DNA of 27,897 bases from the IMG/VR virus record IMGVR_UViG_3300000117_000033, positions 1-27,897 of that record; one strand, 5' to 3'. Position numbers and translations under genes: made by a program. Numbering within the stretch: the stretch's first letter is position 1; the number at the start of each line of letters is the position of its first letter. The stretch is from a virus. Positions 8,639 to 11,236 of this stretch are shown here, in pieces. Under the pieces are notes generated by a model. The model ran no database searches. It saw only the letters and a list, made by a program, of their open reading frames with translations, and was not told where the DNA came from.

Positions 8639-8702
8639 TTTGTACTTCCTTTCGTATTGGGGCTATCCGTAGCCTGTAAGGGGGAGATAAGGTAGCCAAT
8701 TA

Positions 8703-10301
8703 TTAGGATTTAGTTTTTTCTTTGCCCAATCCTGTAGGAGCAAGTATAGTTCTTGTAACTTTACGTTTTGTTTTCTTTAAAGCTTGATTAATAAATATTT
8801 GTTGTACTTGTTCTGCTGACAATTGTTTACCTTGAGCAGCTGCTTTTACATAAGCTCTAGTTAATACTTCACTTGAATTTTTAAGAAACTGATATGTACC
8901 TGGATTATTTTGTAACTTATCACCTAGTCTATTTTCAATAGAGTTTCCTACTACTGTAGATGCACCATAAGACATTAATGTACTTGCTATACCATCAGTA
9001 AAATCTCTACCTTGTACTAAATTCATTACACCTGTTCTAATTCCCATTGTACCTAAACCAATAACATCTTTGTATTCTAAATTACTATTGTCTGTTATAA
9101 ATTTTAAATCTGATTCATCAAATATACTTGTCATTAATTTAGTACCACCTGCTTTAAATGCACCTTTTAAAGCACCATTTTTCATAGCTGTACCTACATC
9201 ACGACCTGATACAGCAGCTACAAGTCCTTCAGTAATAGACCTATTAATTGCACCACCTGCTACTTCTCTAAATAAACTATCTGTAGGTACATTAGCAAAA
9301 ATAGTATTACCCATTGCAGTATCTAAACCTTTAGATATTGCAGGAACTGCCATACTAGTTATCATATTTTTACCAAAAGAACTAGCAAAATCTCCACCTT
9401 GTAAAGCAGTAAAACTAGAATTAATAAGAGCATTACCAAATGCTTTTCCTGCTACTGCACCATATGAACCAGTAACTCCTGATAAAGATCCTAATTGTGC
9501 TGGAACACCCATACTAGCTAAAGCTACAGTTGCCATTAAAGTAACACCTGTTAAATCTGTAGCAGTATCTGAATACTGAGGAACTATTAAAGCTTGTCCA
9601 TCTTTATCAAACTGAATCATAAAGTCTGTCATGCCTTCAGTTTGTGTAGTATTACCCCATCTTAATAAATCATTTGATGTTTCATCACCTTTACCATGAC
9701 CTAAAACACCACCATATTTACCTTGAACTACTTGTTCTCCTGTATCTTTATTAATTAATATTCTTTGAGTTACTGGTTTAACTAATGCTTTTGTTGCTAT
9801 TTCATTAGGCTTATAATTTTTTAAATCTTCTGGTGATATTTCTGTATATTTATATTTAGTTTCTTCATTTGAAAATGCACCACCTGATGACTTTAAAGGT
9901 ACTTTATGATAATATTTTAAACTTTTAAGTTCTTCAGAATCTACTTCTGTGCTTCTATATTGTTGTTGTCCACCCCCATGAGTAGACGTACCACCAGTTT
10001 TAATTGTTGCTTGTTCAAAATAATATTTACCATTTTTTTTAGTTACAAATCTTTCTGATTCTGGCCCTTTTACTTCTTTTAAACCTAATTGACGTAAGTC
10101 TGTTATACCTGCATGTGACAAAGTTTCCATCATATAGTTATTGATAAATGGCATATCTTTTTGATGTGGATAGTTATATCCTTTTCTTGCAAGATATTTA
10201 TTTTGATGATCTAACTGTGATAATAAATTTGATCTACCATCTTCTATAGATAAGTTTTTATAATCTTCTGGCCCTGAAACAAAACTATAAGATTGTTGCA
10301 T
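8703..10301 (-). CDS. Large Ala/Gly-rich protein, putative internal virion protein; frame open up to the slippery site at 10634
   Basis: From ATG 10301 this gives 532 residues, but that ATG has no SD and the same frame is open for 121 further codons upstream, as far as a TGA at 10665-10667, without any ATG, GTG or TTG. The upstream frame is the -1 frame of the preceding gene (10607-11236), which ends with an A AAA AAG slip site. A -1 shift there would give about 201 + 111 + 532 = 844 residues. The N-terminal extension carries two copies of KLNARSILEAEYGKDF. The middle (about residues 240-460 of the 532) is rich in small residues with amphipathic helices (VTLMATVALASMGVPAQLG), and the C-terminus is basic. 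This composition suits an internal or ejected virion protein, but no family is recognised. Confidence 0.7.
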   Translation of the reverse strand: MQQSYSFVSGPEDYKNLSIEDGRSNLLSQLDHQNKYLARKGYNYPHQKDMPFINNYMMETLSHAGITDLRQLGLKEVKGPESERFVTKKNGKYYFEQATIKTGGTSTHGGGQQQYRSTEVDSEELKSLKYYHKVPLKSSGGAFSNEETKYKYTEISPEDLKNYKPNEIATKALVKPVTQRILINKDTGEQVVQGKYGGVLGHGKGDETSNDLLRWGNTTQTEGMTDFMIQFDKDGQALIVPQYSDTATDLTGVTLMATVALASMGVPAQLGSLSGVTGSYGAVAGKAFGNALINSSFTALQGGDFASSFGKNMITSMAVPAISKGLDTAMGNTIFANVPTDSLFREVAGGAINRSITEGLVAAVSGRDVGTAMKNGALKGAFKAGGTKLMTSIFDESDLKFITDNSNLEYKDVIGLGTMGIRTGVMNLVQGRDFTDGIASTLMSYGASTVVGNSIENRLGDKLQNNPGTYQFLKNSSEVLTRAYVKAAAQGKQLSAEQVQQIFINQALKKTKRKVTRTILAPTGLGKEKTKS

Positions 10302-10362
10302 TGCATCTTGTTGTTGAATAGCTGTTTGTTTTTTTGGGCCATTTAATATAGAAGATGTAGAA

Positions 10363-10490
10363 AAATCTTTACCATACTCAGCTTCTAAAATACTTCTAGC
10401 ATTTAACTTATTGCCATCTTTATCTTTTAATAAATTTTTTACATTAAAATCTTTACCATACTCAGCTTCTAAAATACTTCTAGCATTTAA
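10363..10490 (-). repeat. Two exact 44-base direct repeats
   Basis: Bases 10363-10406 and 10447-10490 are identical over 44 bases, 84 bases apart. In the open frame upstream of ATG 10301 each encodes LNARSILEAEYGKDF. The 84-base period is a multiple of three, so the duplication keeps the frame. This supports the idea that the stretch upstream of ATG 10301 is translated. Confidence 0.85.
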
Positions 10491-10606
10491 TTTATTTGAT
10501 GTAGCTTCTACTGGTTTTTTTATATCTGGTTTAGTTTCAATAGCTTGATTTATTGTTGCTGTAGGTTCAGCAGTTTTTTCAGGAGTTAAACCTCCAATAT
10601 TAAAAT

Positions 10607-11236
10607 TTAATCTTGTATTAAATCTGCTATTGACTTTTTTTTTACAGGTAATGCTTCTTCTGTTTCAGATACAGTTTCTATAGAATCTTTAGATGATGTC
10701 TGTGAGGCCATTTCTGTTTCAACTTCTTTAATGATGCTATCAATATCACTATCAAATTCTCCTGTGTCATCTTCTGTTGCTTCCTCTGAGTTACCCATTT
10801 GACCCATACGATCCATCTTACCTAGACCTTCTTTAGCTTCTTGCCTTAGTTTCATAAGATTATTTAATCCTATAAATCTAACTACATCAGCAGGAAATAC
10901 AAACTCTCCTTCACTTAGCTGTGCAGGTATATCATCTCTAACTTCTTTTTTAGTAGAACCTACAGGTACATCATTACCACTTACAGGATCTTTTGTACCA
11001 CCTTGTTGTAATAGACCACCATCATCCATCATAGCTGGGGGCATAGGCATTTTAGGTTTAGTAGCTAATTGTTTTTCTAATCTAGCTATACGTGCTTGAA
11101 GTGCAGCAGCACCTGTAGAATCTTTTTGTTCTTTTCTTACTGCATCTCTAGGATCAACAATAGATTTTGTTGGGCCTGGAGTTTTAATTTTTTTCTTTTT
11201 AGCAACTGTAGGTTTTTTTACTTGTTGGTTTATCAT
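10607..11236 (-). CDS. Conserved head-region protein, 209 aa, with C-terminal slip site
   Basis: The protein starts with a Lys/Pro-rich tail (KKPTVAKKKKIKTPGPTK), a short coiled coil (AALQARIARLEKQLA), and then a region I recall from many marine phage genomes: MMDDGGLLQQGGTKDPVSGN, DVPVGSTKKEVRDDIPAQLS, EGEFVFPADVVRFIGLNNLM, followed by KLRQEAKEGLGKMDRMGQ. The remainder is acidic and low complexity. Function is not established to my knowledge; it lies between portal and scaffold and probably belongs to the head or the ejected proteins. It overlaps the previous gene by ATGA. The final residues PVKKKSIADLIQD include the slippery run that could send a fraction of ribosomes into the next ORF, producing a long fusion with the Ala/Gly-rich protein. 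Confidence 0.7.
   Translation of the reverse strand: MINQQVKKPTVAKKKKIKTPGPTKSIVDPRDAVRKEQKDSTGAAALQARIARLEKQLATKPKMPMPPAMMDDGGLLQQGGTKDPVSGNDVPVGSTKKEVRDDIPAQLSEGEFVFPADVVRFIGLNNLMKLRQEAKEGLGKMDRMGQMGNSEEATEDDTGEFDSDIDSIIKEVETEMASQTSSKDSIETVSETEEALPVKKKSIADLIQD
10634..10643 (-). promoter_or_regulatory. Candidate programmed -1 frameshift site (A AAA AAG)
   Basis: In minus-strand RNA the zero frame reads GTA AAA AAA AAG TCA, so the last seven bases of the A9-G run form A AAA AAG in the correct phase, the same heptamer as in E. coli dnaX. Slipping by -1 avoids the TAA at 10607 and enters the open frame that continues to 8703. A small GGAG/CTCC hairpin lies about 38 bases downstream, farther than is usual for a stimulator. 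A missing base in the homopolymer would produce the same picture. Confidence 0.55.

Follow-up and report, generated by a model that had tools for sequence, protein, structure and literature searches.

A probable -1 frameshift at an A9G tract in a portal-adjacent phage gene whose relatives carry dnaX-like slip cassettes

A gene lying between the portal and the scaffold/major-capsid genes of an HMO-2011-type podophage very probably yields two products, of 209 and 844 residues, through a -1 shift at an A9G tract, a judgement reached without protein or RNA data. The two proteins would share their N-terminus: most translation is expected to finish in the zero frame with a 209-residue protein (domain A and an acidic linker), while at A9G a fraction would move to the -1 frame and run on to position 8703, giving an 844-residue protein of domain A, linker and C-terminal part. 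The shift would most likely be tandem tRNA-Lys slippage on A_AAA_AAG, with RNA polymerase slippage on A9 as a serious alternative or contributor. The shift is proposed as one form of an old device of this gene family, which more usually takes the form of a fused gene with a dnaX-like cassette, the long product then coming from frame 0 and the short one from shifting; the window lineage would have inverted this. That a shift occurs, by which mechanism and at what rate, and that a set short:long ratio plays any role, are inferences. The earlier note on this DNA had proposed the same pair of products (209 and ~844 residues) from a -1 shift at this tract, and that proposal is supported here as the best reading.

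The window, meaning the whole stretch that was analysed (27,897 nucleotides, 28 kb), comes from a virus record of 51.5 kb and has a GC content of 32-34%. Its TerL shares 75-77% identity with the CRP-1 and HMO-2011 proteins, and judged by TerL, portal and capsid similarity and by gene order the phage is an HMO-2011-type podophage, a type described as dominant and widespread in the ocean (PMC9038755). The minus strand carries, in order, TerL, an SU10-type portal gene, ORF1 with its -1 extension, a phrog_13678 gene and the major head protein gene, and the order TerL, portal, X, phrog_13678-like, coat is common to the window, HMO-2011 and CRP-1. The homologue in the HMO-2011 and CRP-1 records is annotated only as one hypothetical protein, gp49 in both, which has a homologous domain A at the same place after the portal gene; unlike the window gene, it is a single ORF of about 715-762 residues with no slip cassette in its linker. 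As a separate observation, the spacer separating this gene from the phrog_13678 one (window 8639-8700; L021:6620-6690; L024:1555-1625) is nearly identical despite the divergence of these relatives elsewhere. It reads GGCTACC..CCCCCTTAC.GGCTACGG.TAGCCCCAA, and no unusual RNA fold was found in it.

The features of the junction are collected in Table 1. The zero frame reads CCT GTA AAA AAA AAG TCA ... GAT TAA around the slip site, with a run of exactly nine A (10643-10635) followed by G at 10634. The phase-correct heptamer A_AAA_AAG occupies 10640-10634, overlapped one codon earlier by A_AAA_AAA (10643-10637). The -1 frame is bounded upstream by TGA at 10667-10665, is open from 10664 and meets its next stop at 8705-8703, so that the predicted fusion joins ORF1 residues 1-201 to 643 further residues, with a predicted trans-frame peptide of KKK followed by VNSRFNTR. 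No Shine-Dalgarno (SD) sequence precedes ATG 10301 (AACAACAAGATGCA), and none of the ATT or ATA codons of the -1 frame before it has an SD at usable spacing. These observations bear out the anatomy given in the earlier note, namely the 209-codon ORF1 ending in GTA AAA AAA AAG with a phase-correct heptamer, the -1 frame open from the upstream TGA to 8703, the absence of ATG, GTG and TTG codons before 10301, and an ATG at 10301 without SD. The exact duplication it described in the -1 frame is likewise present and in frame, with a length of 45 bases rather than 44; over 51 nt the copies match at 98%, and their spacing of 84 nt equals 28 codons.

Table 1. Coordinates of the features at the window junction.
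Feature	Position	Strand	Remark
ORF1, zero-frame short product, 209 aa	10607..11236	(-)	C-terminal end ...LPVKKKSIADLIQD, then stop
Domain A in ORF1, strongly conserved	~residues 69-165		within the short product
A9G tract, zero frame GTA AAA AAA AAG	10634..10643	(-)	identical in L001 and L044
Zero-frame stop TAA	10607..10609	(-)	8 codons past slip site (6 in L001/L044)
-1 frame extension, 643 codons plus stop	8703..10634	(-)	no ATG/GTG/TTG before 10301
Start-less segment of -1 frame	10302..10634	(-)	FNIGGL motif as in fused relatives
First ATG of -1 frame	10299..10301	(-)	305 nt past ORF1 stop
Repeat copy 1, 51 nt, in frame, LNARSILEAEYGKDF	10446..10496	(-)	98% match with copy 2
Repeat copy 2, 84 nt downstream	10362..10412	(-)	similar peptide in start-bearing ORF2 of L004
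Predicted branched RNA structure 3' of slip site	10520..10635	(-)	weak evidence only

The tandem-like 51-nt duplication (10362-10496) encodes an EAEYGKDF-type peptide of which diverged copies occur in L001 and L004, and the linker seems to change in length by gain and loss of repeat units.

In the window there is no SD-like sequence within 25 nt upstream of the slip site, where only GAAGAAG is found. The predicted 3' structure, closed by UCAAUAGC (10633-10626) with GCUAUUGA (10544-10537), has z-scores of -4.7/-3.9 against shuffles, yet ranks at only percentile 12-15 when set against its own gene region; it is not clearly shared with L001, and two genomes are too few for covariation. The lack of an SD at the stimulatory position and a 3' structure that is ordinary within its own gene both count against the shift. 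The 6,470 codons of genes in the window contain 5 instances of A_AAA_AAG and 18 of A_AAA_AAA, and the chance of finding a site within the 19-codon overlap in which both frames are open is ~1.5% for A_AAA_AAG and 6.5% for either heptamer. This figure is modest, and on one genome the heptamer is a lead only. The site is clear of chance because it recurs in a relative and because the cassette is conserved in others.

The recurrence was observed in L001 and L044, which are the same relative from two other metagenomes (99.94% identity to each other) and share ~85% DNA identity with the window over the junction. Both have A9G and a start-less -1 extension as in the window, so that the conservation of tract and extension, named in the earlier note as a supporting outcome, is met in an independent phage. 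The overlap itself differs in sequence and by 6 nt, the zero-frame tails being SIMEIN in L001/L044 and SIADLIQD in the window. Every gap between the slip site and the first ATG is a multiple of 3, and over 97 aligned codons the -1 frame has 0 stops, whereas in the other two frames 11 and 18 codons contain stops. The linker dN/dS of 0.84 (window vs L001) is not strongly purifying, which says little because the linker evolves fast. The peptides encoded before ATG 10301 recur in translated contexts: FN[IVT]GGL is present in fused proteins of relatives, and the ILEAEYGKDF repeats are found in ORF2 of L004, which is ATG-started at the junction. A DNA pattern search for window-type junctions matched only L001 and L044, and the inverted arrangement is known in two distinct genomes only.

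The family comparison covered 147 junction-distinct homologues, the majority of which have a single fused frame. Split genes are of two kinds: ATG-overlap splits without a slip site, in which the ATG overlaps the ORF1 stop (L004, L017, L022, L023, L025-L027 and others), and the start-less A9G form of the window and L001/L044. The earlier note had reasoned that homologues fused without a slip site would point to an assembly indel; this test favours the note's reading, since the fused relatives nearest the window all have a slip tract at the homologous place, A_AAA_AAG or A9, and run into a -1 stop within 1-2 codons of it. In two fused marine subclades and one freshwater clade the tract is in-frame A_AAA_AAG/A, accompanied by an early -1 stop, GAGG upstream and a 3' hairpin, and the full dnaX-type cassette (heptamer, SD, hairpin, early -1 stop) was observed in L014, the L018 group, L061-L069, L179, L182 and L191-L193. 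As far as can be read from their frames, in these fused relatives frame 0 is the long product and -1 the short one.

In the L018/L020/L024/L028/L046/L171 group the site reads CCT GTA AAA AAG, a hairpin begins ~5 nt downstream and AGGAGG lies exactly 10 nt upstream, and the freshwater group (L061-L069, L179, L182, L191, L192) together with L193 has the same layout with different hairpin sequences. Among these A6/A7 forms GAGG lies 10 nt upstream (13 in L014 and L061), where the background frequency over linker codon positions is 1.4%, and the 3' hairpins rank among the lowest 0-4% when compared with other windows of the same gene region (L014: 3.6% at 50 nt). In an alignment of the freshwater group plus L193, 94.5% of cells are paired and 6/10 pairs have changes on both sides; the covariation score was reached by 0/500 shuffles, and slid registers were only 58-69% paired. 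A third fused subclade (L002-type) has A9 alone, with neither SD nor hairpin, and L013, L160 and L165 keep A9 although AAG has become AAT.

Other arrangements in the family were recorded alongside. L033 (A8) was considered as a second start-less case and dropped, having no SD, no hairpin and no close relatives. In a neighbouring group of relatives, L060, L087, L088 and L093 (also L059, L066, L077 and L078), a short ORF carrying domain A precedes a second one that may have its own start near the junction. L121 (635-805) has a short zero frame and a long +1 frame already open upstream, which looks like a plain sequencing indel or mutation and not a programmed shift. The region before domain A is modular: L007, L013 and L021 (e.g. 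L013:677-997) carry an HNH endonuclease-like segment, Pfam HNH scoring above cut-off for that of L013, and other relatives have two unrelated unnamed modules or almost nothing.

In a tree of domain A the window falls in a clade of 23 leaves (support 0.82), all of whose members have a slip tract or are split, and the fused members outside this clade are without the cassette. From this it is inferred that each of its members is equipped to produce domain A on its own and, in most cases, also joined to the C-terminal part. Here "its" refers to the clade of 23 leaves. A concatenated tree places the window and L001 as sister to an ATG-split phage (support 97). CCTGTA..AAAAAGTC is common to the window and the L018/L028/L171 group, the remaining linker having diverged; the window and L001 keep this homologous CCTGTA(AAA)AAAAAGTC but have A9, and GAAGAAG in place of GAGGAGG. 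On this comparison GAAGAAG is a decayed SD, and the polarity of the window lineage is inverted, with the predicted short product ending 8 or 6 codons past the site in the zero frame and the long one in -1.

That the window carries a sequencing or assembly indel, or that a gene which is normally fused was recently inactivated by mutation, is largely refuted and can be given very little weight. One added A would fuse the frames, and the wider family is mostly fused, but independent L001/L044 show the same A9, the same open -1 frame and indels of 3n only. Slightly less far-fetched, though still improbable, is a pair of independent genes, with the C-terminal protein made from ATG 10301 or a non-AUG codon and no fusion. 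The ATG-overlap relatives are truly split in this manner; they start at the junction, however, and not 300 nt downstream, whereas ATG 10301 stands far past the ORF1 stop with no SD, and initiation at near-cognate codons was rejected since none has a usable SD. The peptides upstream of 10301 are moreover conserved, and translated in relatives. Taken with the recurrence in L001/L044, this leaves next to no room for an error of assembly, and an internal start at 10301 becomes improbable.

Transcriptional slippage alone is harder to set aside. Here RNA polymerase would add or drop As on A9, and A10 mRNAs would encode the long fusion directly; as a variant within the two-product model it shares probability with the favoured explanation, and I regard it as a genuine possibility short of the favoured one. 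A homopolymer of about 9 or more A, the criterion for such slippage, is met in the window, L001, L044 and the L002 clade, where the tract is exactly A9 and the fused L002-type members have neither SD nor hairpin. The retention of A9 in L013/L160/L165 despite the loss of AAG fits it too, and dnaX of Thermus offers a precedent (PMC5009743). Against it, the A6/A7 relatives, to whose site that of the window is homologous, have an SD and a covarying hairpin, a design made for ribosomal shifting; the window also keeps AAG, its minority Lys codon (110/552). The simplest account is ribosomal -1 slippage on A_AAA_AAG, and the indications for it are strong in the A6/A7 relatives. It is less certain for the A9 members, and for the window lineage 'ribosomal' is not established because A9 is also a substrate for transcriptional slippage. 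The balance tilts modestly towards the ribosome, and both may act together.

The function of either product could not be read from sequence or fold. Searches of Pfam, PHROGs and PDB sequences found no family for either one, and the AlphaFold2 models were poor (ORF2 pLDDT 55, pTM 0.35; ORF1 pLDDT 62, pTM 0.21). As Foldseek with these models returned nothing at E <= 0.001, no function can be drawn from the fold. The position by the portal and capsid genes and the helix-rich C-terminus suggest a head-associated or ejected protein, without family, fold or proteomic evidence, and the label 'virion protein' used in the earlier note rests on gene position only and has not been shown.

Programmed frameshifts in phage genes are well known. 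The cassette of the fused relatives resembles that of Escherichia coli dnaX (gamma/tau) in its A_AAA_AAG, upstream SD-like sequence, 3' hairpin and -1 stop one codon on, but it lies in a phage gene by the portal and capsid genes, and the window lineage has reversed polarity, A9 and no SD. In the dnaX design the shift makes the short product (PMC5009743; PMC4066793). According to the former source, dnaX of a few bacteria, such as a Chlorobium candidate, has reversed polarity, short in the zero frame and long by the shift as in the window, and Thermus dnaX obtains the same product pair by different means, through A-tract slippage with near stops (PMC5009743). The present protein is unrelated to these, and here a single phage clade contains both polarities as well as an ATG-split form. 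Phage lambda G/GT and other tail chaperones likewise extend a protein C-terminally by a -1 shift near the end of a small ORF; here the phage is short-tailed, the extension is three times the short product and no sequence link was seen. Nor does the gene lie where lambda-type tail chaperones do, between the major tail protein and tape measure genes of a long-tailed phage, the neighbours being the SU10-type portal, phrog_13678 and major head protein genes and the relatives podoviruses. Gene 10 of T7/T3 (10A/10B) and the head protein of Lactobacillus phage A2 are also structural-module genes with a short and a -1-extended form, but this is not a coat protein, its slip site differs and its extension is the larger part. 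In the literature searched no paper mentioned both HMO-2011 and a frameshift, and the word 'frameshift' is absent from the main text of a 2022 survey of HMO-2011-type phages. Within that literature, the dnaX-like cassette in a phage gene, and the polarity reversal and alternative devices in one clade, are new.

I lean slightly towards a broader reading, in which a clade of abundant aquatic phages needs domain A both alone and, in most members, fused and obtains this by interchangeable devices at one homologous junction, and the short:long ratio sets the assembly of a portal-proximal head or ejection structure. The devices proposed in that reading are the dnaX-like cassette, A9 without stimulators (possibly used by RNA polymerase slippage), the inverted-polarity A9 and ATGA-coupled split genes. 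Fusion may not be essential, given that the ATG-split related phages manage without it. If true, a product goes unnoticed by gene callers in many relatives, and the family would offer a natural series (ribosomal shifting, A-tract slippage, polarity reversal, gene splitting) interchanging at a homologous site and, with it, a direct test of recoding evolution outside dnaX. It would also point to a set ratio of two forms of a head- or ejection-associated protein of unknown function.
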